From: Zingiber officinale
Lineage: Eukaryota; Streptophyta; Magnoliopsida; Zingiberales; Zingiberaceae
DNA: 64,000 bases
Direction: 5' to 3'
NCBI RefSeq assembly: GCF_018446385.1
Contig: NC_055996.1
Location: 128,636,532-128,700,531, forward strand
The position numbers and the translations under genes were made by a program. Within the stretch, counting starts at the first letter, position 1; each line of letters begins with the position of its first letter. This document shows positions 1 to 44,937 of the stretch, in pieces. Under the pieces are notes generated by a model. It worked only from the letters and a program-made list of their open reading frames with translations, ran no database searches and was not told where the DNA came from.

Positions 1-399
1 CAATCAAATCTTGAAAACATGCATTTCTTGCAAAAACCTGCCACAGAAAACTATGCTACTACTTCACTGTGTATGTAACAAGAAGAAGCAACTAATGGAT
101 CGCTAGGTTTCCAACAACTTGAAAAGAAGAATCGGTTTATGCAGTACAAGAGTGGATGCTGTCGTTAGACCCATTGCAAATAGAACCAGAGAAGGAATGT
201 ACTTCAAATAGTCAAAGAACACACCTCAAAGGTGAAATTGAACATTAAGAATGCATGTAAAATCAATATACTTTTGAGAGGAAAGAGTTCTGTGGAGCAT
301 TTATCAATCTAAATTTCCACTGATGGCAACCTCCATGGCTACATGCATTCAATTTGACAACGTATACATTCAAGGAAAAAAAGGTAAGGGAAGTATCAC

Positions 400-2784
400 C
401 TTAGTATCAATATCATCATCCCACTCAACATCGGTCTCTTCCTTAACAAAACTTGAAAAGTCATCCAAACAATTGGATACTTCAGTGCTTGAACTCTGTA
501 GTGTCAAATACATTTTTAGAAATTCACATTCATCTCAACATTAAAATAATTGCAGCAAAATAGTTGATGAGAGAAATAAACTGCAACAAGTGATGATTCT
601 CTAAATTGAATAAGTATCCAACATAAGCTCCATTTTGATACTTTCCTATTAAATTTTTCCCCCCAGAAAATCGGTGCTTATTTCAGTCCTTGTATAGGCT
701 AGTTTTTTTTTATTATTATTATTTATTAGGTTTAGTTAGTTTATTTCTTGGATGCTGTTTTATATCACGAGACGACCAATAAATGTCCTAATTAGGTGAT
801 ATGAGATCCTGACAAATACACACATTAATCGAGAAAGAGAGACCAAAGAAGATTTGGTTAGTAATGATAAAATAACATAAAATTCATTTAAATATAGATG
901 AGGAAATAGTAAGTGATCAAGCTCAATGGTATAGAAGGATCCATATAATCAACCTCCACTTAGTAGGATAAAGACTTAATTGTTGTTGTTGTTGTTGTTA
1001 TAAGATTCATTTTGATATACATATTTGCCTTATCTATGAGAAAATGTAGAGAATTGTAAGATTGCAATGACCACTCACCGACAGTTTGATAAGAACCTCT
1101 AATAACAACTCTGTATCAGCTTCACCTAACATAGATAAATTACAATTGATAAATATGACAGATGAGTGTTGAAAAACAGCATGAAAATGCTTCTTTTTTG
1201 GAACTATTAACATTTATTTATTATCAATATAAACCCACCATTTTCTTGGAAAACTTTGTCAACTAGAGCTGGTGCAAACCCCATGCCGACAAAGTAAGAC
1301 TTCAACTGACTAGAAGATGAGCTTGGAAAGCTTCGCTAGATTAAACAAAGAAAATTAGGTAAGAGGAAAGACACATCAAAAGTTAGTGATAAACTACGGA
1401 TATTTCTCTATGTTTGTAGGAATTCCTTCAACAATAGACATCGAAAATGTTGATCATTAGTTCTAGGCAAAAGATTGTTGTTGAAATACCCCGCAGATAA
1501 GAACACCTTGGGAGAAAGATATCAAGAACAACATGTTAAAATTGCTACACAAAATTAAAAAAAAACAAAAAGATATCCGCACAACCTGACAAGTCCAAAA
1601 ATTTGGAAATTAATATGAAAAATCAAACATTGACAGATAGTTTACCATGCTACCATATTCATCATGGTAGCTCGTTAGGTAATTAGAGTTTTGATTATTG
1701 TTGTAAGTTTACAACTCATGCAAGTCCCAACTATTTGTGGTCGCTAAGTTCCGTTGTATCGGTAAACATGCACCATGATTGAATACTTCTTGCAATAAAA
1801 ACAATATATCAATTTTCAGAAGAATATATCTTCTCAATAGAACATTTCATATCCATCTTAACTATTATGTACTAGGAATCGCAAGGGTTCAAAAGATCCA
1901 TGAAGCTGACCTCAAAAAGTTGGCGCGTACGAAGGATCACACACAGTTTACATTTATAATGTAGTCAGTTTCACAAAAAAAAATTTTAAAGAAAAAACAG
2001 TTTAAATCTTGTAAGCCTTCAAAGGTCATCATATTCTAAGAAAGTGATATGTATGTCCCACAGGTGTTGTGCTCTTACTAGCATATTCTTTTTGTTGTCC
2101 TCTATATCACCATAGACTCCCAGAAATTAGAAAACTACAGCCATCAAAGAAACGGAGATGTGTAATGGTGATAGTCTTTTCATAACGTGGCAAAAAGGGC
2201 TCCATACGGTGATATCTTAATGGCCAAGGATGAACATAAAATCAACGAATGCCAACAAATACAGCCATTAGTTCATCAATTAGAATCACCAATAAAATAA
2301 CTGCTTCTGATTCCTGCTTGCTTTACAATACTTGAAGCTTATTTGTTGATAAAGGTGAAACCTAGAATCTTCAATTAGTGATAAAGAACAAATAATTAAA
2401 GGGCTTGCATCCTGATTTGTTGCCAAATAAATTTCAGGAAGTTGAATTCCTCAATGAGCTCATAGGGGATGTAGGGGGGCGCATGCATGGAATTGTCATA
2501 TAGCTTTTTGTTACTCACACAATGAAAATGTCCTCAGTATAGAGGAACATAAGTTCTCAAATGACACAAAATGGAGAAGCCTCACAGCATATTATTGCAT
2601 GTAATTCCTCACAGCATACAAGGAACTAAAGATGAGAAGCATTGGAAGCAAAAAACATTACCTCATCTCCGGAATCCTGTGCACATCTCGATTTAGAAGC
2701 TGAGGAAGAGACCTGAGTTGTTCTTTGATCCACAATTTCAAGGTCAGATGAACTACCACTGTCTGAGCAATCTTCTATCTTAAC
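400..2784 (-). CDS. Partial DRM-like de novo DNA methyltransferase, N-terminal UBA region
   Basis: I read four coding exons on the minus strand: 2784-2662, 1335-1239, 1125-1079 and 495-400. Each is bounded by AG/GT and the frame is continuous (phases 0, 0, 1, 0). Exon 1 is acidic and serine-rich (DCSDSGSSSDLEIVD). Exons 2 and 3 join into a UBA-like domain (GMGFAPALVDKVFQENG, then TELLLEVLIKL). Exon 4 is acidic again (KEETDVEWDDDID). UBA repeats with acidic W-D-containing spacers are typical of the N-terminal half of plant DRM1/2/3 proteins, which act in RNA-directed DNA methylation in the nucleus. The catalytic domain would lie beyond the left edge, so the identity is an inference from the UBA part only. 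The start codon was not found; it should lie in an exon between 2785 and 3661. An unrelated UBA protein is the main alternative. Confidence 0.6.
900..999 (+). repeat. RTE-type LINE 3' tail fragment
   Basis: This stretch reads like the 3' end of the RTE element at 13374 in the opposite orientation: a conserved run with AAGGATCCATATAATC and CTTAGTAGGATAAAGACTTA, followed by a (TTG)n tail at about 979-998. No RTE coding sequence precedes it, so it is a 5'-truncated copy. It lies in the intron between exons 3 and 4 of the DRM-like gene. Confidence 0.7.
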
Positions 2785-3661
2785 CTATAGAAATTGGATT
2801 GAGGTGAAAAATGAAGTAAACAGTTGGCAGTTATTAACGAGATATTTAGTTTGCTCCCAATCAATACCATTTCTCTTGAAATCTCGTATCAATGAACCTT
2901 CGAGTTTGGCAGGCTCTACCTTTACAGTATATAAATAAATACCCCAAATGCCAATATACTCAATAATCCAAAAATATGGAATAGTTTATAAGTTAGCAGC
3001 CATCAGCAAAAGCAGTGATATTTTCTTGTGAAGCCATCTTAATCTGCCATCTGAAAAAAGTTCGAACATCAGACATGAAATAATCTGCGATAATGCATTG
3101 GAATGGGTAACGAACTCTCCGAGAACAACAGCAACGAACATTTTTGTTGACTTACAACTTACAAAAATTGAATAGAAAAACGCAAGTGTAGTAATGATGT
3201 AGCAGAACAGATGCAAAGCGTCAATACTTCGACATGCATAAGAATCAACATTTTTAGGCAGTAAGAAAGAGGAAATACGCGATAGATAACCATCAACAAT
3301 CATGGAAGCAACATGTCACAATCCACCCAATTTGCAGGGCAAGAAATCAAGCCCGTAACAAACATTTGCATTTTGAAAGGATACCAAGAAAAATACAATA
3401 ACCAAAAAAAAAAAAAATCTAAAACCCTAAAAGATTGCGAACTGAGACAATCCTCGAACGCAAACCAGAAAGCGCAACAAAATCAATTACTAATGAAGCA
3501 AAGTGTAGCTGTACCCGGAAAGCAGGCGTGAAGCTGAGATCATAGTAGATGCGATCCGAGGACTGAGGGAGAGAATCCGACCAAAGAACCTCAAATCGAT
3601 AGCACATCGATCGGAGCGACGCATTGTTTACTGGCAAAGCGGTACATAAAGCCGTGCTCAA
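2785..3661 (-). other. Upstream exon(s)/5' UTR region of the DRM-like gene
   Basis: This stretch should hold the start codon, first intron and 5' leader of the minus-strand gene. The part at about 3530-3661 is less AT-rich than its surroundings and looks like a leader exon; the AT-rich DNA beyond 3661 would then be promoter. I could not choose a start codon or first donor. Short ORFs here on both strands have no recognisable content. Confidence 0.35.
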
Positions 3662-6071
3662 TATCGAGGGTTTACTTCGACGATAATAACCTCCACAATA
3701 CCAAAAAATGACTAGAATTATTAGATTAAATATTTTTAAAATTAAAAAAAATCATATTCGTATTCGTAAAAAAAAGTATGAAATTCAAATTTCATTTATT
3801 TTTTAATTTTAAAATATTTTGATTTTTTGGTTCCACTCCAGTAATCTAGGTAAAACTATCCAAGTGCCTCCCATGTACTATCCTTATTATATTTCTTGTC
3901 TGAATCTTGAATCATAAATAATAATTATAAAGATGAATTTTGAATAAAGAATATATTATTTCTGAAATTATGGTATCTAGTAGGATATTTAGGTATTTCT
4001 AAATTTTTTTTTCTGTAAATAGGAGATGTAATCAAAGATGTTAAAGTTCTAGATTGATCATCGCTTCTCGATTTATTCCGATGGATAGTAAAAAATTTCC
4101 GTAAAATCGAATTAATAATCTCAGGAATAATCAATAAAATTAACTAAATTATTATTTTTAAATAATAGATATATTATAATAATTATGAAATCATATATAA
4201 CGATTATAACATGATTTTAAGTAAGCCAATAATATTTTAACAATTACAATTTTATAGCGACGAAAGTTATACACTACAGATGGAGTGAGACATTCTTTTC
4301 ATTAAAAAAAAATTCAAAATAGAAGGTCATGATTCCAAAAAATAGAGGACTTAACTGTTGCCCTTACTAAATTTATCCCCATATTTATTTTAAACTATTT
4401 AAATAAGCTTTCTTTGTTTGCAGTTTTAACTTTAAACAATATTTTGGCCACATGTCACTGCTAACTTATTTTAATGTTTCATCAGATAATAACATGGCTA
4501 ATATTTCAATAATATTCCGTTCAATTTGCCCATCCAAAATCATATTCAATTTCTCAATAAAATTATCCTATCAAAACTGACGATATTTAAAAAAAAAAGT
4601 TACATTTTTGAGCATTGACATCAATATATTTTGGGGAGGCATCTTGCTCTGGAGATGATTCTTGAAGACATCATGAACAAATTTTTCCAAAGCAATTTTT
4701 ATTAACTCCATTTGATGCTTGAACACCATTTGATCCGGTTTTCATCTGCAATAAGGGAGGGGAAAAAAAGTTAGAATACTCGAAGAATATCATTAGAGTA
4801 CTAATATACGAGTTTAATGGCGTCAGTCGAGCAAATTTAATCTGTGGAATAAATCAAGAGAAAAACTGGTGGAAGCAAGATAAATCTAACTGAGAAACTT
4901 AATTCTGAGGATTTTGATCAAAACGAACAGAATGAATGGCCCCAGCTTTTAAACCATAGACTACTATCCTTGTACAGTTGCTATTGATTCAGCTTGAGAC
5001 CCAATTCTTATCACTCTCTAGTTGGAGCCAATCCATTACTAAAGAAGCTTAGAGTGATCAGAATTTAGATGTTCTATAGAGTAGGCATTTGCATAGATAA
5101 CTGGCTATTAGTTTGGAGAACAAAGAGGCAAATTATTTTCATTAGATTGCATTGCTTAGTCGTATACTTACAGTCTCAAACCTCAAACACTTTGGGCATA
5201 AAAGTTTATCAGGATCCTGATTGCACAACTATTCAGTAAGCAAACCTCACGAGTTAAGCTTCTTAGTCCATTTCATGAACAGTCGCTGAATCATTTGTTA
5301 CACTCTCTGCTAGGTACAGGTATAGTTTCTGAAGAGGCTATGAAACCCACAGCCTAAAGTGAGTCAAAGATGGTAGTCATCTTCTTGTTGGTCCCATTAG
5401 ATTGCTGATTCCTCTGAAGTCCAAGTTTGTTTGCTTATGTAGCTCCCACGCTGCTATACAAGGCCATGACCAAAAAGATAATTCCAACGTGTATAAACAT
5501 AAATCCTTTTGGCACACTCGTAATCAAATGTGATAAATAGAGTCATTTCCTCTTTTTCATGCTAATAACTAACCAGAAACACAAGTTTGTATGATGAAAA
5601 ATAAATAATCAGGCATAGAATTTTGAAGGTCTATTTTGTTGGAAGTCTAGAAACTCACACTTTGTTTGTTGTTTTTGTAGTTGTAAACTGGCTGCTTTAA
5701 ATACCATTTCATGTTTCCATTCCTTGTGTTCTCACTTAACACCAGCAGCAGCTTCATTCTTGAATAAAAATAGTACAGGAGAAACCGGTCTAAGGTGTCC
5801 GAAGAATGAAGGATAACCTGTATGAGTTGTCTTCACCGCATCAGAAACCTGAGAAGAAAGAAACAGGAAGATAAATATATTTGCTAGTTTAATGTAACAG
5901 CTATATCTACTACCACAACTACCAATTACAGACATCATTATATACAGAGTATTTTATCAACTGTAATCAAGGATCAGCAAGAAACATGAGGGATAACAAG
6001 AAAGACTGCAGGCAAAAAAATGATACCTGTACTTGGTATCTTGTGGGAAGTGATCACAAGGAGACTGGAAT
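3662..6071. other. Intergenic DNA and probable 3' UTR of the PPR gene
   Basis: The stretch is AT-rich from 3662 to about 4600 and I see no coding exon. The minus-strand DNA just below the PPR stop (about 5730-6071, and possibly a block ending near 4750 that follows a TTGCAG acceptor-like site) could be a spliced 3' UTR. No repeats or RNA genes were recognised. Confidence 0.3.
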
Positions 6072-8186
6072 TCACCAATAATCCCTGCAAGAACAAAATC
6101 CATCCTGGAAATGGTGGAATCTGTTGGTATCTCTTAAAATGATTGTGCGCCCTGTGATTTTCGCTATCAACTTGATTGCTGAATGGCAATCCCCACATAC
6201 CCGGAGGTTCTTCATAACACGGATTGGCAATCCTTCTGGAATCTTCAGTATTCCAAATGCCACTGCCAGCCTCTCACTGTGGTACCTTAAGTTATGAGCT
6301 TTTTCCTCTTCGTCAACATCATGGAGGGCGAAAGCACCATCTGGGGAGTACCCTGCCGTTTTCATCTCTGCGTCTAAATGCTCCAACTTGTTCATTATAG
6401 CAGCATACTCAGGATCTGCTGAAACATCACCTGAAGTGAACATATGCATTTTCTTGTTGAACTCTATCCAGCTACAACCGGGGGACTTGCTCACATTCCT
6501 TGAGCTCATCACCTTCCTCAAGTCTGCAACATCTTCCCATCTCCCACTTGAAGCATAAATGTTGGATAGCAAAACATAGTGACCGGCATTACCAGGCTCT
6601 AAATGTACAAGCTTCTTGGCAGCAACCTCAGCAATTTCTGCATTCCTGTGCGTCCGACATGCACCTAAAAGAGCACCCCAGACAACAGCATCAGCTTCCA
6701 TCGGCATCTCCTTGATCAGATTCACTGCTTCAATGACACGTCCTGATCGACCAAGCAGATCAATCATGCATGAATAATGCTCAATTCTTAGTTCCACTAA
6801 ATGCTCAGAACTCATGGACTGGAAAATTTCTTGCCCTTCTTTAACCTTTCCTGCATAACTACAAGCCAACAGGACCCCTATGTACGTTATCTCATCTGGC
6901 ACCATGCCCACAACTCTCATATCATCAAATACACTCAAAGCTTTCTCCCCTAGACCATGTTGGGCATATGCAGTGATCATGGAATTCCACATGACAACAT
7001 CCTTTCTGTCAAAGTTATCAAATACTATCTTGGCTTTGTCAAGCTCACCACATTTCACATACATGGTTAGTAAAGCCGAGACAATGAAGACATCTTCACT
7101 AAAATGAGACCTCACTAACGCCGCATGAACCTCCCTTCCCAAGTTAAGAATTGCTAGGCTGGAACAAACAACGAGTACACTAACAATCGAAGCAAAATTT
7201 GGTCGAATCCCATTCATTTGCATGCAACGGAAGTAGGCAAGAGCTTCCACTTGGAGTCCATTTTGTTCGAATATCTTGACAATGGCACTCCATGCCCCAT
7301 CATCACGCTCTACCATCTCATCAAAAACCTTTTTTGCTTCCCTCACCATCCCATGCTGCCCAAACCCAAGAATCATAGCATTGCAGGCGACCACTGATTT
7401 CTCTGGCATCACTTGAAAAAGTGTGGCTGCCTCTTTAACACGGTTAGACTGAGCATATCCAGTGATTATTGCTGTCCAAGTGACGTCATTCCTCTCAGGC
7501 ATTACTTCGAACAGCTTCCGAGCGAGATCGAGCTGAAGGTTCTGGGCATACCCAGAGATCATGGCTGTCCAGGATATGACATTCCTCTTTGGCATGTTGT
7601 CGAACAGCTCCCTGGCGTCAGTGGTGCGACCAACCGTGCAATAACCTGATATCATTGCCGTCCAGGCGACGACGTCCTTCTCTGGCATCTGGTCAAAGAG
7701 CCTCCTAGCGTCGTCGATACGGTCGTCCTGAATGAGACCGCCAAGCATGACGGTCCAAGACACGACACTGCGTTCGGGCATGCAGAGAAAGAGCTCCTCC
7801 GCCTCAGCGACCCGCCCGTGCTGGATGTAACCGCGAACCATGGTGGTCCACGAGACAACGTTGGGGTGGGGGATGGAGTCGAAGAAGGCGCGAGCCTTCG
7901 GGAGGCATCCGCGAGAACGGAGAATACCGGAGAGCATAGCGTTGTACGAGCTGGTGTCCCGCAGGGGCATTCGGTCGAACAGGTGGCGTGCAAGGAGCGG
8001 CTGGTGGTTGAGGAAGTAGGAAGCGATGAGGGAATTGAAGGAAACAACGTCGCGCTCCGGCATAGCGTGGAAGACTTTCTCAGCCTCCTCGATGCGCCCG
8101 AGGCGGCCATAGCGGTGGATGAGGGAGTTAGAACGAAGGATCGCCGGAGTGGCGGTGGCGCGGAGGCGCAGCGGCGGGAACCGCAT
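6072..8186 (-). CDS. DYW-class pentatricopeptide repeat protein, organellar RNA editing factor type
   Basis: Intact intronless ORF of 704 residues. The N-terminus is Arg-rich with few acidic residues (MRFPPLRLRATATP), as in an organellar transit peptide. Tandem PLS-type PPR motifs run from about residue 15 to 480 (repeated 'VVSWTAMISGY' and 'A..LF..MPE' patterns). E/E+ motifs follow, with the PG box (SPGCSWIE) at 568-575. The C-terminus is a full DYW deaminase domain: HSE at 636-638, C664 and C667 of CGDC, and the terminal CSCRDYW. These proteins bind organelle transcripts in a sequence-specific way, and the DYW domain carries out C-to-U editing. Length and order closely resemble the Arabidopsis protein At1g56690, annotated as mitochondrial; orthology is inferred from memory of that family. 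No lesion was seen. The AUG at 8186 is the only plausible start. Confidence 0.93.
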   Translation of the reverse strand: MRFPPLRLRATATPAILRSNSLIHRYGRLGRIEEAEKVFHAMPERDVVSFNSLIASYFLNHQPLLARHLFDRMPLRDTSSYNAMLSGILRSRGCLPKARAFFDSIPHPNVVSWTTMVRGYIQHGRVAEAEELFLCMPERSVVSWTVMLGGLIQDDRIDDARRLFDQMPEKDVVAWTAMISGYCTVGRTTDARELFDNMPKRNVISWTAMISGYAQNLQLDLARKLFEVMPERNDVTWTAIITGYAQSNRVKEAATLFQVMPEKSVVACNAMILGFGQHGMVREAKKVFDEMVERDDGAWSAIVKIFEQNGLQVEALAYFRCMQMNGIRPNFASIVSVLVVCSSLAILNLGREVHAALVRSHFSEDVFIVSALLTMYVKCGELDKAKIVFDNFDRKDVVMWNSMITAYAQHGLGEKALSVFDDMRVVGMVPDEITYIGVLLACSYAGKVKEGQEIFQSMSSEHLVELRIEHYSCMIDLLGRSGRVIEAVNLIKEMPMEADAVVWGALLGACRTHRNAEIAEVAAKKLVHLEPGNAGHYVLLSNIYASSGRWEDVADLRKVMSSRNVSKSPGCSWIEFNKKMHMFTSGDVSADPEYAAIMNKLEHLDAEMKTAGYSPDGAFALHDVDEEEKAHNLRYHSERLAVAFGILKIPEGLPIRVMKNLRVCGDCHSAIKLIAKITGRTIILRDTNRFHHFQDGFCSCRDYW

Positions 8187-8333
8187 GAGTACCGCGTAGA
8201 ATATGAAATTTTCATTCGCAGTTGTAAAATTATATCAAAAAATACAAACTGTTTCTTAACCTAAAGTTTTAAATTAGAAATATGAGAACTTTAAAATTAC
8301 AACAAGGTATTACATTAAAAATCTATTTTCACT

Positions 8334-8943: not shown

Positions 8944-10630
8944 TATTTGTTTTAACGAATCAATCACTGAAATGCCATGTTTTAAATTAATCAGTAGATT
9001 AAATTTGATAAAATGAAAGGACGGAATTAACCTGGTAATGATGGAGCCGTAAAATATCTTCTTAATTTTTTTAATATAAGAATAAGTTTTAATTTTGATA
9101 AATTAATAAATAATTTTTTTTAATGAACAGTTGATCTAAAAATATTGGATAATTCATGGTTGAATGGTTAACTAAAAAAATAAACAGAACTAACTTCCCA
9201 TGTGTCTAGAACAGATGATGCACCCTCACGGATTTCATTTTCTCAAGGAATAAGTTTTTTCACCTAAAGACCGCTTAGTATCGTGATTTACTTCTCTTCC
9301 GCAAGGAGACAAGCGCTATCACCTTTGCATCACATAGAAACAGATGATGCATTCACTCAACCAACCATAGTCATAATGATATCATTAAAGAGTCTCAAGT
9401 GGGCATTGAAAGCAAAGCGATCCCAGCACATGAGGCAACTGTTTAACCCCTACAGAGCAGATGTGTGTTTGTGCAGGACCAGCAAGCAGAGGTGGGCACC
9501 TCAGGAATTCAATTCAAAGGCATTATGATTGCAAAATCTGTGTTGAGCAGGTGGTTCTGTGGTAGACAAGTGTTAGTGGTTAGCCTAAAGTGTGTAGGAA
9601 GCCGCCCACACATCCAATCACAGCTGTGGCGCTGTGAGGTTCATGCTTGCTTGTTCGCTCCTGGCCCATTTGCCCACCATCATCTCTTCTTCCATTCATG
9701 TCTGGTGTTCATTAATCACCTACAATTTGTCATCATGTTCTAACTTTAGCATATATCTTCAAAAGCCCGGGCTTTGGTGCCGTAGTAGAGTATCTATATA
9801 GTCTCTCAAACATTCATAATTCGATTGCCAATTACTACCCACCGTAAGATATTTTCTTGGAATTACAAAGCTAGAATGTTAGGCTATTGGGTATGAAAAT
9901 TTTTTTGTTAGACTAGATCGATCATTTTCAAAATTAAGCAATCCAAAGAGTTGAATATCTAATGCTTGCTAAAAAACAAAGCGTATATCTTAATAGTAGT
10001 TATCAAATATAATTATTATAATAACTATGGATTGTAGCCCGTCACAAATAAGAGTAATTTTGAAAAGTAGTATGAGTAGAGTTGAGATAGAAAGTTATTT
10101 TAATAATAAATGAAAAAAAAAACTGATAATGAACGTCCACTTTTGCCCTATCTCTTTTGTTTTGTTTGTAGGCATACAATTCCTAGCTCATTTCCATGAT
10201 ACGAACAGAGACCTTGTATAAATGATCTGTCAGAGCCACAGAGGATGTCATCTGTTAAGAGTTCTTCTGCTTAAATTTTAATGTTGACTAAAATTATTAT
10301 AATATATCCTTGAAGCAAAGCATGTGAGCGAGTTGATGAGCATTGTTGTCCTCATGCATGCGCAAACCAATGTCGATTTTGGCCAGATTCATTTCAAGTG
10401 CGAATTAGAACTTGTATAGTTTCTTTGCTTCTTTCCATTAATTTTCTTAGCACATTAGCATGCAAACAAAAGGATTGAAAAGATTCATAATCTTTTATAC
10501 ATCTCCATGGGTCAAGGAAGAATGATATACTCTGCACACACAGAACATACTTAATTAACAAGTCAAACGAAGCAAGCTGATGCCTGCAATTACAAGACAC
10601 ATTTCCACTGATTACAATAAGCACGCATAA
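8944..10630. other. Intergenic, nothing recognised
   Basis: This lies between the MITE and the 3' end of the TAS3 transcript. Short ORFs occur, for example around 9283-9743, but show no family resemblance, splice structure or codon pattern that would support a gene. I see no tRNA, repeat array or transposon end. Confidence 0.4.
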
Positions 10631-10657
10631 GCAATTACACGAGTGTTGGAGATCAAC

Positions 10658-10663
10658 TTTATT
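10658..10663 (-). promoter_or_regulatory. Candidate polyadenylation signal of TAS3
   Basis: AATAAA on the minus strand, about 35 nt downstream of the 3' miR390 site. It is correctly placed to end the precursor near 10635. This is inference from motif and position only. Confidence 0.4.
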
Positions 10664-10696
10664 CTCATGAAAACAAATGAAATACACATGGAAGTG

Positions 10697-10717
10697 CAGC
10701 TCAGGAGGGATAGAGAA
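10697..10717 (-). promoter_or_regulatory. 3' miR390 target site, cleavable
   Basis: Transcript complementary to miR390. The plus strand shows AGCTCAGGAGGGATAG, identical to miR390 positions 2-17, so pairing across positions 10-11 is perfect. Mismatches fall only at positions 1, 18, 20 and 21. The predicted cut lies between 10706 and 10707 and sets the siRNA register. Confidence 0.93.
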
Positions 10718-10811
10718 AAGAGGTGGGCAAGAGGAGGGCGAGAAGGGAGAAATATAGTTCGCATTGACTCACTCATGGGGGAGAGTGAGGCAAGAGAGAT
10801 AAATGGAGAAT

Positions 10812-10832
10812 TGGGTCTTACAAGGTCAAGAA
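10812..10832 (-). ncRNA. tasiARF unit, register D6(+)
   Basis: The transcript begins TTCTTGACCTTGTAAGACCC and differs from the Arabidopsis TAS3 tasiARF only at the last base. It occupies the sixth 21-nt register upstream of the predicted miR390 cut. The expected function is AGO1-dependent silencing of ARF2/3/4-type mRNAs. Confidence 0.93.
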
Positions 10833-10853
10833 AAGGTCTTACAAGGTCAAGAA
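10833..10853 (-). ncRNA. tasiARF unit, register D7(+)
   Basis: The transcript begins TTCTTGACCTTGTAAGACCT and directly abuts the downstream unit, in the seventh register. Tandem tasiARFs are typical of the long type of TAS3 gene. The first 19 nt match its neighbour exactly and the last two differ. Confidence 0.93.
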
Positions 10854-10916
10854 CAATCAACTCAAAAAAATTGGAAAACAAAAAAAAAAAAGGACAAAGG
10901 TGAAGAGGGATGAGAG

Positions 10917-10937
10917 AAGCTCAGCTGAGATAACGCC
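10917..10937 (-). promoter_or_regulatory. 5' miR390 target site, predicted non-cleavable
   Basis: Compared with miR390 in plus-strand sense (AAGCTCAG then AAC-GCC end), the site is mispaired at positions 9 and 10 and has G:U wobbles at 12 and 17; all other positions pair. Mismatch at the slicing position is the known hallmark of the 5' TAS3 site, which binds AGO7-miR390 without being cut. Its lower boundary lies exactly 210 nt (ten registers) from the 3' cleavage point. Confidence 0.9.
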
Positions 10938-10946
10938 AATGCAAAG

Positions 10947-11231
10947 CTAGCGAGAAGCACTTGGTAGAGCAAACACAGGGAAAGAGAAGAGGGCATGAGC
11001 ATGAAAGACAAGCATCCTTTGACCATTGCTCCAGCTTCTTGCCATGTTGGTGATAGCAAACAAAGCTATGGGTACTGCATGCACCTTTACAGGTGTGGAA
11101 GACGGCGGCACCTACACAAAGAACAAGCGTTAACAATAAGAAGGGCAAGAAGAAGCTTGCTTTCTACTTTTCAGTTAAGCTCTTACTGATAAATAGCTAA
11201 AGAACAGATTGCGAGCTGCAGTTTTTTCCAT
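10947..11231 (-). CDS. Short upstream ORF of the TAS3 transcript, probably spliced
   Basis: AUG at 11231 opens 15 codons (MEKTAARNLFFSYLS). A strong donor follows (GTAAGA, 11186), with a 75-nt intron to a TGTGTAG acceptor (11112). The frame continues 54 codons to UAG at 10949-10947, giving 69 residues. Even without splicing, an in-frame AUG at 11045 gives a 32-residue ORF with the same stop. The stop lies 9 nt upstream of the 5' miR390 site. In TAS3 of other plants, an ORF ending just before this site brings ribosomes up to the AGO7-miR390-SGS3 complex and promotes siRNA production. The peptide resembles nothing I know; position, not product, is probably what matters. Splicing is inferred. 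Confidence 0.55.
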
Positions 11232-11431
11232 GCTTCAACTCAGAGAGACCTGAATTAAAGAAGAATCACAAGGAGAAATCTTTGCGCAAATTGAAACTAA
11301 AAAAAACAACTGAGTGGAGATGCAAAGGGATACAGGACTCACATAGGAAGGCAGGTTTATGGTATTAAAAAGGATGAGGAGATAAGGCAGCAACAAAGAG
11401 CAGAGAAGAGCTTTCTGCCTTTTGAGCAATG

Positions 11432-13373
11432 ACTCACATGGAGGAGTTTTGGCATGAATGTTAGGGCTAGAGTTAGGTGTGGATTTGTAGGCTGCCCGGG
11501 GTTAGTCTAGTTTAGATAATTAAGATTTCATATCAAGAAACTATCAAAAATAAAATAACATATTTTTCCTATTCTCTGCCACACGTGTGAGGGAGGGTTC
11601 ATGGAAACTGGTTCGTGTGAGAGGCGAGCTGTGCTGCATGCGTCCCTTTCTGGCTATTCAAACACATCTCGTCTTGGTAAAACATACAATGCAGTGCTGA
11701 TGTTGAAACATGAACACTGAGGAAGTTTTATGCATGCACTCTCAATTCTCAATATAATTTCTCATTGAGGTAGTAAATTTGATACTAAATGCATGGGGAC
11801 TGCTAGCTGAGGCTGATTGGTTTGGCTTGGTTTAAAATCTCTTGGCAATTAATTGCTGCTTCAAACTTAAATCAGTTTACTTGGGAAACATGTAGGTCCT
11901 ATTGCATGATTATACAAAGCTTAAAGCGCCTGCTCTCTTTCTTTGACCACATAATTTAAACAAAGACCAAAAGACCATGCCAAGCACAAGGTGTCGCGGT
12001 TGGTGTGCACCCATAAACAAGAACAGCAACTTAAATTCATCTTATCTGATCTACACAGTCTTTGAGAAGAGAAGACCGACTTGTTTATGACAGGGGGGCT
12101 TGCAACTCCCATGGTGTGCACTAGCTAGCTAGATGTTATTAATTTTGGTGCAGAATCAATATTCGTGATTTTTTTTTCTGATCATTCCATTTGCATTCAG
12201 AGATTAACCACTGAAAACTTGAAACTTTCCAAATGCATGCAGAAACTGGCGTGATGTTTTATTTACTCTGAGCATTTACTGCAAGCCACCACCCAATGAG
12301 CCGTCCATTAAAGCTTACACCGCCAAAGGCAAGCAAACAGCAAAACTGCAAAAGCAAGCCCTCGCAGCCTCGCTCGAGCCATATCATGCATGGCACGGCC
12401 TCAGACAAGTTTAATTAGGTGGTCCGTGCAAGCATTCATGCAAATTTTGGTCTAGTTTTCTCTCCTCCCGAAGATTCTACAAAGGCTTTTGTATGTTTCT
12501 ATTCTAAAGAAATGGCAGTTTGCTGTAATCACGTGAAGGTCGATATCCTCATGCAGGGGCTGAAGGGGACCTTTCATGAGAATTAGGACCAAACTCCTTC
12601 AATGTCCCCTGCTCCTCTTCCTGTACTCTTAGCACGTATAATTAACGCACCCTCCGATTCACTGTAAATTTAAGGCCTTGACTCAGTGGTAGATTCACTG
12701 GATTTAATGGGGTGTTCTGCTACCTCTCTGTTTATTTTTACTCCTCCAGTACCTGATTTCTGAATCAGCAATATTGAGACTGTCCATTGGAGCTCGACTT
12801 GTTGATGGAGTTGTTCGATGGGTTGCTATTTTGCCTGAAAAATGGGCAGATGGTTAAGAGTTTTTGCATGTCTGGTGATGGGAAGAACAGACATTGCTGG
12901 CAGGGATAATGATATCTGAGAATGCCTTTTAGCTGTACCTGCAGTCTGCAGGCCGATTTTGTTTCAGAGGACTGCGAGGAAGTATCTCTCATGCATTCTT
13001 TAATTCGATATTGTAACATTGAGTGAGTGAGTCAGTGAGTGAGTGAGGAGGGAAGGTGCTCTACATGATAAATTTTGAATCATTGCATGCATAATATATA
13101 CCTTGTTGATGCATAGTGAAGGAACAACAACATTAGCCTACTACCTTAACAAATCAAACTAACATACAAGTGGAAGTGATATATTGGGAAGGAATCCTTG
13201 TTCCTTTGTCTTCTAATTTTGCCTACTTCTCCTTGTAGGCTAAATCGTATGGGCTTCACACGTGGATCGGATCACCCCTCACATATAGGGAGACCCAACA
13301 CAACAAATTGCAATATTTTTCCTTTTTCTTTTATTGAAATATAAGGATAGAGGTGGTAGTTGTAGTAAAATTT
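11432..13373. other. Intergenic, including probable TAS3 promoter
   Basis: A 10-bp palindrome CACACGTGTG with a G-box core lies at 11580-11589, upstream of the TAS3 transcript, and is a candidate promoter element. A GAGT-type microsatellite lies at about 13021-13048. Short ORFs such as 12765-13019 (minus) show no recognisable domain. Otherwise I see nothing. Confidence 0.35.
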
Positions 13374-15104: not shown

Positions 15105-16270
15105 GTGAGTTCATCCATAATTAGTATAAAAAGATAGGGATTTAGAGTTGATCCTTGATGTAACTCTATCTTTATTGAAAATGTTTCAATTACTCCGTCA
15201 GAAGTCTTTACTTTGGTCGTTACATCCTCGTGCATATCCTTAATTAGTTTAATATATGTTACGCTAATACCTCTCTCTTCAAGAATTCTCCATATAATTT
15301 TTCTTGTAACTCTATCATAAGCTTTTTCTAAATCAACGAATATCATATATAGATCTTGTTTTTGCTCTCTATATTTTTTTAATTAATTGTCTAAGAAGAT
15401 GTATAACTTCTATTATCGACCTTCCAAGCATGAACCCAAATTAATTTTTGGTCATCGAGGTCTCCTTCCTTAATTTTTTTTGTATTACTTTTTTTTTCAA
15501 ATTTTTATGGTATGACTCATTAGTTTAATACCCCTATAGTCTGTACAATTTTGTATGTCTCTCTTGTTCTTATATAAGGAAACAAGAGTACTTATCCTCC
15601 ATTGATTAAACATTTTTTTCGTTTTCAATATCATGCTAAATAATTTTGTAAGTCATTCAATACCTTGTTTCTCTAGGCACTTCTATACCTCTATCGGAAT
15701 ACCATATGGTCCAACGACTTTTCCATTAGCATCCATTTAAAGCTTGTTCTACTTCTAAAGTTTGAATTTTACGATAAAAAATTAAATTTCCATGCTCATT
15801 TGACTTACTTAAATTACCTAAGTTAAGTTGGTCACCTAAACCTTCATTAAAAAGTTGATAAAAATATCTTTTCCACTGATCTTTTATTTCTCCATCTTTT
15901 ACTAGTACCCTATTATATTCATCTTTAATACATTTTACTTGAATAAGATCTATTGTCTTTTTTTTTTCTATCACTTTAGCTATTATATAATTGTCTCTTT
16001 CCCCTTCTTTTATATCTAATTTTTGTTATAATCATTTAAAGTTTCATTTTTTGCTTCATTCACTATTTTCTTAACTTTTTTCTTGACTATTGTATATTTT
16101 TTAAAGTTTTTTTCATTCTTACAAATATATAATTCCTTATAAGCTATTCATTTTTCCTCCACTTTCTCTTGTACTTTCTCATTCGATCACCAAGATTCTT
16201 TATTTAGTTGTGCATGTCCCTTTGACTCATCGAGTACACTCTTAGCCACTATTTTCAACTTTGATATCAT
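15105..16270 (-). pseudogene. RTE-type LINE fragment 2: RT N-terminal part and linker
   Basis: ORF at 15346-15017 encodes RT blocks IFVDLEKAYDRVTRKIIW and HQGSTLNPYLFILIMDELT, the last ending at the solo-LTR insertion. Upstream (15974-15726) the endonuclease-RT linker KDQWKRYFYQLFNEG is recognisable. Frames are broken between the blocks. The RTE class is judged from the LHQGS..PYLF and DLEKAYDRV signatures typical of plant RTE elements. Confidence 0.85.
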
Positions 16271-18945
16271 TGTTAGAGTGTATACTAAAAGTCTAGCTTT
16301 TGGTATAAACATTTATCTAGAAATAAGAATCACATTGGTCAAATAACTACATTTATGATAAAAGTAGTTGTTCAATTAATTTATATTGTAGATAACATGG
16401 TGTGTGGTGTCACACACAGAAGATCATGTTATCAGTACCTTATAAATTATAAACAGTAGCTCACGACCAAAATGGAAAGGAACAAACCATTAGAAGGTCG
16501 TAGTGTAATTAGGTATCTGTTTATCTTGACTGTATAATTACACTAGTACACTTAGAGTGTATTGAGTAGGACCATTTGAGGTCGTTTCTTTTATACTGAT
16601 TTTATAAAGAAACAAAGACCTCGGTTATTATGGAAGTATGTACTCTTAATCCTAATATAATAACAAGCACATATATTTGATATTTATTTCTTTAATTTAT
16701 CAATGGGTGAGATTTAGTTCGATGAATCAATAAGCCCGATAAGTTGGGAAATGATATCACTTATAGTGTGTGTTGTTGATTATAGAAGGAAACTGTGTCC
16801 TAGTAATCTAGGTTGAGAATGTCCCCAAGAGGAGCTCATAAGGATTGTCATGTTAAACCCTGCAGGTGGACTTAGTCCGACATGACGATGAAGTTGAGTG
16901 GTACTACTCTTGGAGCTAGATATTAATTAAGTAAGTTGTCAGTAACTTACTTAATTAGTGGACATTTGTTATCTTAAACACAGGGAGACTAACACACTCA
17001 TAATAAGAAGGAGCCCAAAATGTAATTTGGGATTGGTGCGGTAGTTCAATAATAGTTCTCTAGTGGAATGAATTATTATTGATAAAATTAAGTTGTGTGT
17101 TCGGGGCGAACACGGGATGCTTAATTTTATCGGGAGACCAAAACCAATTCCTCCTCTCGGTCCCTATCGTAGCCTCTAGTATATAGAGATTTATACCCAC
17201 CGCATACCCACCTTCTTACCCATCCAAAGGGGCCGGCCAAGCTAGCTTGAAACCCAAGCTAGGGCCGGCCAAGACCAAGTGGATGAGTTAAGTTGGTGGC
17301 CGGCCAAAGCTTGGGTCCCAAGCTTAGGTGGCCACTAGAATATTAAAAAGGATTTTATTAAAATGATTTCTTATGTGGATATCATGTTTTAAAGAGAGTT
17401 TAAAATTAAAATTTCCTTTTATAGCTTTCTACAAAAGATTAAGAGAAGAGATTAATCTCTTTCCTTATTTGTAGTTTAAAAGGATGGTTTTAATTTTTGG
17501 TAAAAACTTTCCTTATTTGTAAATCATCTACATGTTTAAAAGAGAGTTTAAAATTTGAAATCTTTCCTTATTTGTTGATTAAAGGAGGATTTTAAATTTT
17601 AAGAAAACTTTCCTTTTTAAATCATGTTCATGATTTAAAGAAAGTTTAAAATTAAATATTCTCTTTTATAAGTTTCTACAAGAGATTAAGAAAAGATTTG
17701 ATATCTTTCCTTATTTGTAGATTAAAAGAGATTTTAATTTTTAGAGATAACTTTCTTTTTATCCACATGTTTAAAAGAAAGATTTTAATTTATTAAATTT
17801 CCTTTTTATAAACCAATCATGAAGGGATAAAAATTATTGAGAAATTTTTATAAATTTCCGGAAGCAAATAAGGAAGTTTTAATTGATGTTTAAAATTTTA
17901 TTTGCTTGGAAATTCTATGGTGTGGCCGGCCAAATAAATTGGAGAAGGAAAATTATTTTTGATTAAATAATTTTTTCCTTTTCATGGCAAAAGAATTAAG
18001 GAAGTTTTTATTAAATTTTCCTTATTTGCCAAGACCAAGGATTATAAAAGAGGGGGTAGAGGAGGCTTCAAGGCTAACGAATCTATTCTATTTTTCTCTC
18101 CCTCTTTTCTTCTTCTTGTGGCCGGCCCTAGCCTTTCTCCTTTCTTCTCTTTTGGTGGCCGAACCATACATCTCTTGGAGCTCTTGTTGGTGGCCGGATC
18201 TAGGAAGGAGAAGAAGAAGAGGAGGAAGCTTCATCTTGAAGATCCCTTGGAGTATTGGTGGTGATCAAGTTCTTCTTCCTTGGAGGTGGTTCTTCTTGTG
18301 GCCGAACCTTGCTTGGAGAAGAAGAAGGTGCATGGTGGTTCTCGTCTCGGAAGATCGTTGCCCACACAACGTCCGAGGTTAGAAGAGGAATACGGTAGAA
18401 GATCAAGAGGTTTTTCTAAAGGTATAACTAGTAATTTTTCTTTCCGCATCATACTAGTTATTTTTGGAAATAATACTAAATACAAGAGGCATACGATTCT
18501 AGTGTTTCGAATTTGTTTTCGATATAGTGTTCTTTTGTTTTTCTTTTCCTTGTGATTTGATTGTTCTTTTTGGTTAACCTAGAGTTATTTTAGGAAATTA
18601 AATATTAGCTTTCATAAAAGGTTTTGTCTAGTCGGTGGTGGTTGCTCCCATATCCAAGAAGGCCATGTGCCTCGCCACGTCAGTACTGGGAACCAATTAT
18701 GGAAATTAATATTTAATGGAATTAATAACTTAAGGTGACTTGGGTCGAACGTGTTAAGTTCCGCAGGAGATCCAAGTCAAAACCTAAAAGAACAAATAGA
18801 TTAAGTTTTGGATCAAACGTGTTAAGTTCCGCAGGCGATCCAAAATTTAATTTAAAAGAACACATGGTAGCTAGGAAAAGGTTCAGACCTTTGTACAAAA
18901 TTTTTGTACAGTGGAACCTCTAGGTTTTCAGAGTAGCAACCAACA
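16271..18945 (+). repeat. Copia LTR 1 (2675 bp)
   Basis: Runs from TGTTAGAGTG to CAACCAACA. GGCCGGCC palindromes cluster at about 17231-17300 and again near 17931. A TATAAAAG box at 18043-18050 would set transcription start near 18075 and give an R-U5 of roughly 870 bp. Purine- and pyrimidine-rich AT tracts of the AAGAAAGTTTAAAATT type recur in U3. Confidence 0.9.
18043..18050 (+). promoter_or_regulatory. TATA box of copia LTR 1
   Basis: TATAAAAG in an otherwise suitable U3/R context. The same box is present at 25173-25180 (LTR 2) and 32314-32321 (LTR 3). Confidence 0.6.
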
Positions 18946-21900
18946 ATTGGTATCAGAGCTAGGGTTTTGCCTCTGTGTATTTGGTATTAGTTTAATTATG
19001 CACATGTCATACATAATTTAGGCAGGTTAATAGTAGGATGTGCTAACTTTGTGGATGCAGGATCCAACTATTATGGCTTATAGTTATTATGTGTGTGATT
19101 GGACCCTTGGACATGTCAAGGGCATTTTATTGTGTGTGCATGATTGTATTATAAAATACGGCAGGCGTATTTAGTTTTATTAGGATTTTATTTTTGATCT
19201 AGATACATGTACATTCCTTTTATGGAATATAGGATCAAAATGTAAATTCTATTTATGTCATGGATCTAATCTTGCAAAGCGTGGAACCTTCGAAGGACCA
19301 GAGGCGCAAGAACTAGGAGCAAGATGGATGCGATGGCGGTGGCCAAATATGGCAGCAGCTTGGGATGACAACACACGGAGGACAACTAGAGATAAAAGCC
19401 ATAATAGTTGAAAATTAGATTTTCTATTTATTGCTTTTATATTGTGCTGTGTGTGCATGTTGGTTTACATATTTAGTAGGCTAGCATAGTTAAAATTCCT
19501 CATTTATAAATAACTAAGTGGGAGAGGGATTTTTAAGTAAATCCCATGGTCTCCATTACTGGTTTGTAAGTGATGCAAACAAGCTTGCGCGTTGGCTCTG
19601 AGTGCCTTCCTCCATAACGGATGAGCTTGTTTATGGATCACTAGAACAGACTTCCATTTTTGGATGACTATAGGAAGTTAATTAAGAGCGTGTGATCTTC
19701 CCCAACGGAAGGGGCATAATCTTATTAATGGACTTAGTGTCAAGTAATGGTATACACTTAGACACATCTAATAGTATCCTCCCCATCGGAGTCACTGCTA
19801 TTATTTGTGTGACCAAATGAAACCAACTATTAATTTGTCATAAAACTATGTTGACAAGATAATAAAATTAAAGGGTTAAAACCCCTCTTACAAATGATTG
19901 ATTTTGTATACGTCCACACTAACGTGGCATACAAAATTAACGGTGTTTGAGATAATTTTATTTGTCATAAAGATACGTTGACAAGATAGTTAATGGGTAA
20001 AACCCTCCTTTTATAAATGTTGAATTTGTATACGTCCACACTAACGTGGCATGCAAAATTCACGGTGTTTGAGGTGTTGGTAAATTTAAATAATATTGTT
20101 TGAGGAATCAATGTTATTTTAAATTCAAAGAATTTTGACCAAATATTTGATCAAAGACAGATCAACTATTAATTTTATTCGTCATAAAGTAAAGTTGACG
20201 AGATAATAAAATTAATGAATAAAATCTCCTCTTCGATTTTGTATACACAAAATTCATGGAGATTTTAAGGAGTTGATCTTGACCAAATGTTTTTGTGATT
20301 CTTAGGATGTTTGTCAATCCCTAGTAGTCATACTATAGAAAAAGACTTAGTAGTCCCAATTGTAATGATTGGAAATAGGACTTGGACATTAAGGTAGACT
20401 GTCTTCTTAGAACTAAGAACAATTTAGGTGTATTTAATTCATTAGTTGAAACATGTCTAGTGGTGTTATCTACCAGAACCTGGAGTGTAGATACAAGATG
20501 TCATTAATCATGTCTGCAATTCATTGCAGGGTTCCAGGAAACCCGACAACTAAATGAAAGGTAAATCACCGTCCACATGGGCACTACTGTAATAGTGGTA
20601 GCTGTTGCAATGGGAGATGTTTATCCTTTGATAAGAATAAAATATGGATTTTAAGTAATTGTCTTTACGTACCAAGTTTAGAAAGAACACGATTTCAGTT
20701 TCTAAACTATTATAAATATTATGTCTATTTTGATAACAAAGTTGTTATCAAGAAAAATAGGAAAGTTATCTATTCCGGTATGATGGTTGACAATTTATAA
20801 TCCAATAACTCCCACGATGCAACAAATGGAAATTAGTAACACATCTTCTAATTTTAAGAGAAAGCAACCTTCGGAAATGAACCAATTATATCTTTGGCAT
20901 CTAAAGCTAGGTTATACTTGAGTAGGATTCATTGGTAGCTGATGAACTTTTGGGTTCATTGGTAGTGGAAATCTTTCCAACCTACGAGTCTTATTTGGAA
21001 GGAAAATAACCAAGAAGCTTTTAAGTCCAAGGGGTATGGAGTCAAAGATATGTTGAAAACGGTTCATTCTGATTTATGTGATCCTATGACTATCCAGACA
21101 AGAGGTAGTATTGAATATTTTGTCCATTTAATAGACAACTATTCAAGATACAAATAAATTTACTTAATGTACCGCAAGACTAAGTACTTTGATTAGTTCA
21201 AAGAGTACAAGGCTGATGCGGAGAAACGTCAAAGTAAAAAGACACTACGGTGAGATCGTAGTGGCAAGTACCTCTTGGGAGAATTTAGGAGTCACTTATC
21301 AAAAGTAGGGATTCAATCCCAACTAACTACACCTGGTACACCCCTACAGAATGGTGTAGAAAAAGGAAGGTATAAAGCTCTTATAGAATAATTAGATCGA
21401 TGATGAGTTATTACCAAATTTGTTTTAAGGATATACACTAGAAACAGAAGTGAACATAATACCTTCTAAAGTCAGAACTCTCTACTCCCATAGAATTTCA
21501 GAATGGGCGTAAGCCTAGTCTGAAGTATATTCGGATTTGGGTGGTCTAGCACATAAGAGACACTGATAAGTTGGGCAAGAGTTCACTTGTTTGTGAGTTA
21601 TCCTAGAGAAACAAAAGTAGGTTTATAGTCTTAAAAAAATCAGAAGGTCATTATCAATGACCGATTTTTAGAATAGGACTATGTAATAAACCACATGCCC
21701 ATAAGTAAATTTGTTCTTAAGGAAATAATAAAGGACATGTCTAATCTAGTACCAACTGTACAAGATGAAATATCACAAGAAACTGCAACACGTATCATAA
21801 AAGATACACAATTACAGATAGTGCCTCTTCGTAGTGGGAGGGTTGTCAAGCAACCTAAGAGATTCATGTTTTAGGAGAGTCTTTGGACTTGATCCCAAAT

Positions 21901-23418
21901 GAACATGAGCCTGATCCCGGACATATGATGAAGCACACCAAGATAAAGATTCAGCATCTTGGCAAAGAGTAATGAATAACAGAATTAGAATATATATATT
22001 CTAATAAAATCTGGAAGCTTGTAGAACCACCAGATGGTGTAAAAGCCTTTGGGTGTAAAAAGGTCTATAATAGGAAAAGAGGGATAGGAAGGTAGAAACT
22101 TTCAAAGCAAGGCTTGATGAAAAGGAAACTTTTCACCGGTAGCCATGTTTAAGTCTATCCGATTCTTTTATCTATTTGGCAAGTGGATGTCAAGACAGTA
22201 TTCCTTAATGGAAGTCTTGAAGATAGCATCCACATAAAGCAAACCAGAAGGGTTCATTATAAAGGGCTAAGAGCATCTTGTGTGAAAGCTCAATCAGTCT
22301 ATGGACTGAGGCAAAGCTTCAAGGTCTTGGAACATCCAGTTTATCAAAGTAATCCAGACCTTTGGATTTATTGAATAAACGGATAAGTCTTGTGTATACA
22401 AATGGTGTGATGGAAACGTGGTGATGTTTCTTGTACTATACGTAGATAACAATTTTGGTAGTTGGAAACAATATCAAAATGTTGTCAGAAGTAAGGGTAT
22501 GGTTGTCCAAATAATTCGATATAAAGGACTTGGGAGAATGTATATATTTTTGTGATCAAAGTAATAAGGGATCGCAAGAAAAATATATATAGATATATCC
22601 CGAGTTTAATATATCGAAAAAATCCTTACTCGTTTTTAGCATGCAAAACTCCTAGAAAGGTTTCTTACCTTTTAAGAATGGAGTGTTTTTATCTAAAGAG
22701 ATGTCTTCGATAACATCAAAGGAGATTGAGGACATGTAGGTAGTTCTTTATGCTTCGGCAGTTAGACAACCTAATGTATGCTATGCACGAGATCAGAAAT
22801 CTGTTTTGCCAAGGGCATAGTTAGCAGATATCAAAGTAACCCTAGACAAGGACATTGGACTGCAGTAAAGCATATAAGTACCTTAGAGGCACTAGAGATT
22901 ATATGCTAGTTTACAAGGCAGTTATTTTGGTCCCTATGGGTTGCATGGATTTTAACTTCCAATCGGATAGGGACAATATTAAGTCAACCTCGGGGTTTTG
23001 TGTTTACTTTAGGAGGTAAAGTCATAACTATGGAAGAGTGATAAGCATAGGTGTTTATCTGGACTCCACCATAGAAGCTTAGTATATGGCAAGCCTCTAA
23101 GGTAGCCATAAAAGCTGAATGACTCAATAACCTCAAGATAGATTTAGAGATGATTTCTGGTTTGTCCAAAGATTATTACAATTTATTGTAATAATGTTGG
23201 TGCAGTAACAAACTCGAAGAAACCATAGGTCTATAAGGCAAGTAAACACAATAGAGCACACAATACGAGAAATCGTATAAACGAGGAGAAGTTGTTGCCG
23301 CCTAGATTGCATCAGATGATAACCTAAGGTCCTTAAGGCAAGAGTTTTTTGAAAGGCATGGGAATCAGATGTATGGCAGCAGATATGGCAGCTTAGTCTT
23401 TTAGTATAAGTGGGAGAT
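18946..23418 (+). pseudogene. Copia internal region 1, decayed gag-pol
   Basis: The primer-binding site TGGTATCAGAGC is at 18948-18959 (initiator tRNA-Met type). GAG-pre-integrase remnant YLWHLKLGYT is near 20890; integrase remnant LTTPGTPLQNGVEKG is near 21320; RT remnant VDVKTVFLNGSLED is at 22183 onward, with the catalytic YVDD replaced by YVDNN near 22440; an RNase H remnant (STSGFCVYF) is near 22990. A polypurine tract AAGTGGGAGA is at 23408-23417. Stops and frameshifts interrupt every domain. It cannot make a working polyprotein. Confidence 0.85.
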
Positions 23419-29000: not shown

Positions 29001-30542
29001 ATCCCAAATGAACATGAGCCTGATCCCGGACATATGATGAAGCACACCAAGATAAAGATTCAGCATCTTGGCAAAGAGTAATGAATAACAGAATTAGAAT
29101 ATATATATTCTAATAAAATCTGGAAGCTTGTAGAACCACCAGATGGTGTAAAAGCCTTTGGGTGTAAAAAGGTCTATAATAGGAAAAGAGGGATAGACAG
29201 GAAGGTAGAAACTTTCAAAAGCAAGGCTTGATGAAAAAGGAAACTTTTTCACTGGTAGCCATGTTTAAGTCTATCCAGATTCTTTTATCTATTTGGCAAG
29301 TGGATGTCAAGACAGTATTCCTTAATGGAAGTCTTGAAGATAGCATCCACATAAAGCAAACCAGAAGGGTTCATTATAAAGGGCTAAGAGCATCTTGTGT
29401 GAAAGCTCAATCAGTCTATGGACTGAGGCAAAGCTTCAAGGTCTTGGAACATCCAGTTTATCAAAGTAATCCAGACCTTTGGATTTATTGAATAAACGGA
29501 TAAGTCTTGTGTATACAAATGGTGTGATGGAAACGTGGTGATGTTTCTTGTACTATACGTAGATAACGATTTTGGTAGTTGGAAACAATATCAAAATGTT
29601 GTCAGAAGTAAGGGTATGGTTGTCCAAATAATTCGATATAAAGGAATTGGGAGAATGTATATATTTTTGTGATCAAAGTAATAAGGGATCGCAAGAAAAA
29701 TATATAGATATATCCCGAGTTTAATATATCGAAAAAATCCTTACTCGTTTTTAGCATGCAAAACTCCTAGAAAGGTTTCTTACCTTTTAAGAATGGAGTG
29801 TTTTTATCTAAAGAGATGTCTTCGATAACATCAAAGGAGATTGAGGACATGTAGGTAGTTCTTTATGCTTCGGCAGTTAGACAACCTAATGTATGCTATG
29901 CACGAGATCAGAAATCTGTTTTGCCAAGGGCATAGTTAGCAGATATCAAAGTAACCCTAGACAAGGACATTGGACTGCAGTAAAGCATATAAGTACCTTA
30001 GAGGCACTAGAGATTATATGCTAGTTTACAAGGCAGTTATTTTGGTCCCTATGGGTTGCATGGATTTTAACTTCCAATCGGATAGGGACAATATTAAGTC
30101 AACCTCGGGGTTTTGTGTTTACTTTAGGAGGTAAAGTCATAACTATGGAAGAGTGATAAGCATAGGTGTTTATCTGGACTCCACCATAGAAGCTTAGTAT
30201 ATGGCAAGCCTCTAAGGTAGCCATAAAAGCTGAATGACTCAATAACCTCAAGATAGATTTAGAGATGATTTCTGGTTTGTCCAAAGATTATTACAATTTA
30301 TTGTAATAATGTTGGTGCAGTAACAAACTCGAAGAAACCATAAGTCTATAAGGCAAGTAAACACAATAGAGCGCAAGTACCACCCAATACGAGAAATCGT
30401 ATAAACGAGGAGAAGTTGTTGCCGCCTAGATTGCATCAGATGATAACCTAAGGTCCTTAAGGCAAGAGTTTTTTGAAAGACATGGGAATCAGATGTATGG
30501 CAGCAGATATGGCAGCTTAGTCTTTTAGTATAAGTGGGAGAT
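26078..30542 (+). pseudogene. Copia internal region 2, decayed gag-pol
   Basis: Near-copy of internal region 1, with the primer-binding site at 26080-26091 and polypurine tract at 30532-30541. The same domains are broken at the same stop codons, showing that the damage predates the duplication. It differs from copy 1 mainly by small indels and by one replaced patch near 26722-26775. Confidence 0.85.
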
Positions 30543-33218: not shown

Positions 33219-33640
33219 ATCATATTATCCCATGTCGTATTAGAGTCACCATATATTTTACCTAATGCTTATACTCCTTTTTCCTTAAATATATTTTGTT
33301 TCTCATCCTTTAACTTCCACCACTTAATTATAGGAGTCGTATATATTTTTTTTTTCTATTAATACTATATTTGAAGTGTATATCCAACATTACTAACCTA
33401 TGTTAGGGATGACCTTGTAATCTTTATAAATTTTTTCATCATTTTTCCTAACTATAAGAAAGTTAATTTGTGATTTATTATTCTCACTTTTGAACATGAC
33501 TAAGTTTTTTCTCTTTTTTTTTTAAAATATATTAGCTAATATAAGATCATATATTATTGTAAAATCTAATATAGTTTTCTCTTCCTCATTTCTCATTTCA
33601 AACCCATAACTTCATGTACTCTCTCATATTCCTCATTTTC
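33219..33640 (-). pseudogene. RTE-type LINE fragment 3: endonuclease-RT linker
   Basis: The minus-strand translation gives IFKEKG and LGKIYGDSNTTWDNM, linker residues of plant RTE elements. They join in sense across the copia array to fragment 2 (ISKLKIVAKSVLDESKG side). Stops are present. T-rich runs have expanded in it. Confidence 0.7.
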
Positions 33641-44644: not shown

Positions 44645-44937
44645 GGAGCGTTTCTGTTTAACTTCTTTTTGAATTCCCGCCGTTCGGCCCCGATTATCTG
44701 TGTAATGACCTTTTCGGCTTGCATATTAGACAATCTTCGGTTCCTTACTATTTTAGCGAGAAATTTTTCCCTCGTCCCAACTTTTAAGTGTTTCTTAAAA
44801 CTCTTCCGCTCGGCACCATTGATGGCGCTCGTTCACTTGTTCGCCTTTTTTAATTCTGATTAACCGTCTATTACTTCGCGCCTCGCCTCAAAGGGGTTTT
44901 TGCTGGATTTTCGCCTGGCTTCCCGCTCGGACATTTA
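44645..44937 (+). other. Spacer after the antisense ORF
   Basis: GC-rich retroelement DNA between the antisense stop codon and the tandem array. No domain was recognised. Confidence 0.4.

Follow-up and report, generated by a model that had tools for sequence, protein, structure and literature searches.

We aim at identifying what is encoded at positions 10697-10937 of a 64,000-nucleotide stretch of ginger (Zingiber officinale) DNA (C11:128636532-128700531, hereafter the window). An earlier note had read this segment as a TAS3 locus with tandem tasiARFs on the minus strand. Among the listed open reading frames (ORFs) of at least 100 aa, none overlaps it, and the nearest lie at 6072-8264 (a 704-aa PPR ORF and two others overlapping it) and from 14304 onward. 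Is the segment a TAS3 gene, and if so, of which type and in what state?

Sites, register and identity of the locus

Candidate miR390 sites were scored against the miR390 sequence. The two sites in Table 1 are the only ones in the window with a plant-target penalty of 7 or less, and this scoring agreed with the earlier note on the coordinates, on both sites and on the strand. The predicted cut in the 3' site falls between 10707 and 10706 and sets a 21-nt register. Counted from this cut, the two tasiARF units occupy D6 and D7 with no offset, as had been claimed, and the 5' site fills exactly D11. The same 21 nt form the 5' site in both copies of a paralogue on contigs C5 and C6 (L001 and L002). 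Given its central mismatches at positions 9-10, the 5' site is predicted to be bound and left uncut. A degradome peak had been proposed at 10707, which is off by one: the end is expected at 10706, because the 3' cleavage product would begin there.

Table 1. Features of the TAS3 locus and its upstream region (window coordinates)
Feature	Sequence	Position	Strand	Remarks
3' miR390 site	TTCTCTATCCCTCCTGAGCTG	10697-10717	minus	miRNA positions 2-17 paired without a break; penalty 4
5' miR390 site	GGCGTTATCTCAGCTGAGCTT	10917-10937	minus	mismatches at miRNA positions 9 and 10; G:U at 12 and 17
tasiARF unit 2 (D6)	TTCTTGACCTTGTAAGACCCA	10812-10832	minus	zero offset; D6 also in the C5/C6 paralogue
tasiARF unit 1 (D7)	TTCTTGACCTTGTAAGACCTT	10833-10853	minus	zero offset; single G:U against most ARF-like exon sites
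Short ORF, 32 codons		11045-10947	minus	9 nt lie between its stop and the 5' site downstream; frame and stop retained in the paralogue
Possible leader intron, 75 nt (GTAAGA...TAG)		11112-11186	minus	proposed by eye; splice dinucleotides common to the paralogue
TAS3 core and 3' flank		10449-11254	minus	conserved with the C6 paralogue, ~82-83% identity
Proximal upstream block		11308-11503	minus	86% conserved; probable promoter or leader
Distal upstream block		12380-12714	minus	89% conserved; probable cis-regulatory element

We then consider how often such an arrangement arises by chance. In 300 first-order Markov windows there were on average 0.01 miR390 sites per 64 kb with a penalty no higher than 5.5, counting both strands, and no pair of sites lay 100-400 nt apart. 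Likewise, when up to 3 mismatches are allowed, the window has no tasiARF core besides the two units (mean of 0.02 in 100 shuffles). A laxer scan with a 15-nt core of the miR390 site, also at up to 3 mismatches, returned 5 matches against 1.48 expected, and 2 of 100 shuffles reached 5, so the 5' site by itself is weak evidence. That indistinctness, when the site is taken alone, is all that speaks for a chance resemblance, a reading which the shuffle and Markov controls and a paralogue sharing the register make vanishingly improbable and which the conservation of that paralogue refutes.

Judged from the sequence, the minus strand almost certainly carries at this locus a TAS3 gene of the canonical two-tasiARF type, with the standard layout of flowering plants. 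As expected of TAS3, two miR390-complementary sites flank the siRNA region and the tasiARFs lie in the 21-nt register of the 3' cut; as expected of the two-tasiARF type, mismatches fall around miRNA positions 9-11 in the 5' site, a region where the 3' site pairs well. The genome itself holds miR390 genes and ARF-type mRNAs to which the tasiARF is complementary, their identity as ARFs being taken from exon fragments below cut-off and from a VLQGQE frame. In the proposed mechanism, AGO7-miR390 would bind the transcript at both sites and cut the 3' site alone; RDR6/SGS3 would turn the 5' fragment into double-stranded RNA; and DCL4 would dice every 21 nt from the cut, releasing D6 and D7 as two tasiARFs that would silence ARF-type mRNAs, tuning auxin-response genes. 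Ribosomes on the short ORF would probably halt just upstream of the 5' site, leaving the siRNA region bare. We infer transcription, cleavage, phasing and ribosome action alike from the sequence. Ribosome stalling at the TAS3 miR390 site has been the subject of papers of its own.

A search of Rfam, which may hold no TAS3 model, gave no match at the gathering threshold anywhere in the window. A local hairpin was sought in the upstream conserved block and nothing outstanding was found, as judged from energies only. The distal block is better conserved with the C6 paralogue than the TAS3 core is (89% against 82-83%) and holds a CACGTG motif.

Related TAS3 genes, trigger and targets in ginger

A close relative of the locus is the C5/C6 pair, with 84% identity over positions 7-622 of a 661-nt query. 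(Two further matches, L003 and L004, are the window's own in the other orientation and have no values in this comparison.) The pair resembles the locus in carrying its tasiARFs at D6 and D7, in the position of the short-ORF stop and in having related neighbouring genes, so the tasiARF register stays the same across duplicated TAS3 genes. It differs in that its miR390 sites are 21 nt closer together, its second tasiARF has AAGGCC and its 3' site diverges at the 5' end. A second pair, on C9 and C10 (L035 and L036), likewise has two miR390 sites, an ORF stop 9 nt before the 5' site and an in-register tasiARF; unlike the locus, it has a single tasiARF, placed exactly at D4, and a spacing of 146 nt.

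Two observations concern this one-tasiARF pair itself. In the C10 allele (C10:103172500-103176500) the 3' miR390 site is mismatched at miRNA position 7, a mismatch absent from the C9 allele, and the C10 allele may be cut less well. In addition, the 5' sites of both alleles are mismatched at miRNA positions 9-10, whereas published one-tasiARF genes are described as matched at position 10 (PMC3835848).

The layout is already known, and the locus is a further TAS3 gene of known type. One- and two-tasiARF subfamilies have been described (PMC3835848), and adjacent in-phase tasiARFs between two miR390 sites are the published angiosperm arrangement (PMC3835848, PMC3225373, PMC4124141), as in cassava TAS3a/b, whose tasiARFs are adjacent (PMC4124141). 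With two-tasiARF angiosperm genes (of the Arabidopsis TAS3a type, and maize tas3a-c) the locus shares two miR390 sites, the 5' one with central mismatches, as well as tasiARFs that stand in tandem and in 21-nt phase with the 3' cut, and a short ORF upstream. The Arabidopsis tasiARFs, however, are 5'D7(+) and 5'D8(+), one register further from the cut than D6/D7 here (PMC3225373). Cassava TAS3c is of the one-tasiARF type, like the C9/C10 pair; its tasiARF is at D4+, a count made from the 5' end, and cleavage is reported at both of its sites (PMC4124141). A sentence in PMC3835848 can be read as assigning two tasiARFs to dicots and one to monocots, and its Table 2 gives both types in seed plants; this table, together with the three maize loci tas3a, tas3b and tas3c, which carry two tasiR-ARFs each in a monocot (PMC4263373, Table 1), speaks against the gene being unusual for a monocot. 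A literature search on TAS3 phasiRNA in Zingiber officinale found no paper in the collection searched, and the main text of one ginger genome paper mentions neither miRNA nor TAS3. For ginger, we add a well-formed TAS3 locus and a compact inventory of TAS3, miR390 and ARF-like targets.

The trigger is present in the assembly as eight exact copies of the miR390 sequence, forming four allelic pairs, all eight on the 5' arm of hairpins. The search for targets gave 41 matches, 30 of which were given loci; three of the remaining 11 were seen through L001, L002 and L036, and the other eight stand outside the count. Of the 26 loci (L005-L030) with a site resembling a tasiARF complement, 24 fall within open frames that are 278-344 aa long and read VLQGQE, as is typical of ARFs. 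These 24 sites pair with D7 of the window at penalties of 1.0-2.5 and represent 14 ARF-like genes in seven allelic pairs, five pairs having two sites and two having one. The other two loci, L019 and L030, have frames of only 34 and 36 aa and do not resemble ARFs.

Neighbouring exon pieces were given to Pfam for three of the seven ARF-like genes, and all three contained ARF_AD or B3 fragments, in every case below the curated cut-offs. The site-bearing exon pieces gave no Pfam family match (0/7), and a PDB sequence search with one ARF piece gave no useful match. Like the two-site ARF-like genes here, maize ARF3 genes have two sites about 200 bp apart (PMC4263373). The same-register paralogues, the miR390 genes and the ARF target sites all back the TAS3 reading of the earlier note.

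Site spacing and the upstream short ORF

It had also been argued that the lower edge of the 5' site lies exactly ten registers from the cut. The count stands, at 210 nt; the argument drawn from it is weak, as such a fit is expected about once in 21 by chance and fails in the one-tasiARF genes. Moreover, because no cut is expected at the 5' site, its edge has no known role in phasing. The C9/C10 pair, at 146 nt, breaks any general TAS3 rule that this edge falls on a register boundary.

A narrower proposal is that two-tasiARF genes hold the spacing of their miR390 sites at whole 21-nt steps, ten here and nine in the paralogue. Both distances, 210 nt in the window and 189 nt in C5/C6, are multiples of 21, and a MAFFT alignment with the paralogue places a sole gap of exactly 21 nt between the 5' site and the tasiARFs. 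If true, the AGO7 complex bound at the 5' site would delimit an integral number of Dicer steps. Three points speak against the proposal: the one-tasiARF spacing is one nucleotide short of seven steps, the 21-nt gap sits in a T-rich tract, and BLAST splits that gap into several small ones. For these reasons coincidence is the likelier source of the 21-nt spacing, and we regard a maintained whole-step spacing as very improbable.

The short ORF upstream of the 5' site was overlooked by the earlier note. Each of the five TAS3 copies read has an ORF whose stop precedes the 5' miR390 site by exactly 9 nt. The C5 and C6 copies have a 33-codon ORF at the matching place; on C9 and C10 the frame opened by the matching start soon meets a stop, and another ORF, of 12 codons on C9 and 37 on C10, ends 9 nt upstream. 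Some starts would lead past the kept stop, since a 54-codon ORF in another frame of the window (11026-10862) crosses the 5' site; on C9, a 41-codon ORF ends 13 nt inside it.

Between the window and L001, the sole gap in the short ORF is of 3 nt, and nine of the ten changed codons are nonsynonymous and one synonymous (codons cut by the gap being left out), which rules out a conserved peptide. With the stop position kept and the peptide drifting, the comparison points to translation itself, more than to the peptide, as having a role. A short ORF with its stop near the 5' site is a known TAS3 theme. TAS transcripts have been reported to carry short ORFs that are bound by ribosomes and have their boundary at the miRNA site (PMC5207768), and mutations in the TAS2 and TAS3 ORFs to lower tasiRNA levels (PMC6572396); the kept stop position agrees with both reports.

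Genome context and other features of the window

The assembly comprises 3,090,333,446 bases in 211 contigs, and matches to miR390, TAS3 and ARF-like genes fall largely in contig pairs (C1/C2, C3/C4 and so on). Size and pairing agree with the phased ginger assembly published at 3.1 Gb with 11 chromosome pairs (PMC8342452); a second has haplotypes of 1.53 and 1.51 Gb (PMC8342499).

Neighbouring genes suggest that the C11 and C5/C6 TAS3 genes derive from a segmental or whole-genome duplication. A gene with a VARLMGL motif (L064), about 63 kb from the C11 TAS3, matches only two other places, both at 86%: one on C5, about 634 kb from the TAS3 gene there, and one on C6, at a distance of about 77 kb. 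A second gene (L062), about 15 kb from TAS3 in the opposite direction, gives short matches that lie about 2 kb from the C5 and C6 TAS3 genes; it is the weaker evidence for duplication, because equal or better short matches lie far off on the same contigs.

An allele on C12 was sought by probing a stretch of about 82 kb at six places. It was found neither with probes from window positions 1-5900, 6100-8186, 10600-11260 and 11261-12980 nor with the neighbouring genes at C11:128630548-128631861 and 128710561-128712426; for the probe 1-5900, 40 of 2822 candidates were scored, most of them matching a repeat near window 770-1000. Both alleles are present at the remaining TAS3 loci, at the miR390 loci and for the seven ARF-like genes that were read. 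The stretch C11:128630548-128712426 is either hemizygous or a place where the assembly has collapsed the haplotypes.

Taken with the existence of a close C5/C6 paralogue, the lack of a C12 allele among these probes raises the question of whether the locus is a relic, keeping the TAS3 syntax while silent or nearly so and leaving the work to the C5/C6 copies; in maize, some TAS3 members are weakly expressed or diverging (PMC4263373). The short ORF of the locus, its two tasiARFs and its two miR390 sites are nevertheless all intact, two upstream blocks are conserved, and the second tasiARF retains AAGACC where the paralogue has AAGGCC. A relic is therefore unlikely, and we prefer the reading as a canonical TAS3 gene.

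The window contains several other features. The uninterrupted 704-aa PPR ORF (6072-8186) includes an E motif and a DYW deaminase domain, and its product is a probable organelle RNA editing factor; no second full-length copy was seen among its 26 matches in the assembly. A direct tandem repeat at 16269-33220 has a unit of about 7.1 kb, about 2.4 copies and 98-99% identity, with an identical 132-aa ORF at 17984, 25114 and 32255. A probable LTR retrotransposon spans 41089-52046, its terminal repeats (41089-41814 and 51314-52046) being 98.2% identical over 733 columns; its minus strand gives gag, RT, RNase H and integrase matches, and an ORF on the plus strand matches Transposase_28. Finally, a short tandem repeat of about 123 nt, with 93-95% identity, occupies 44923-45538.
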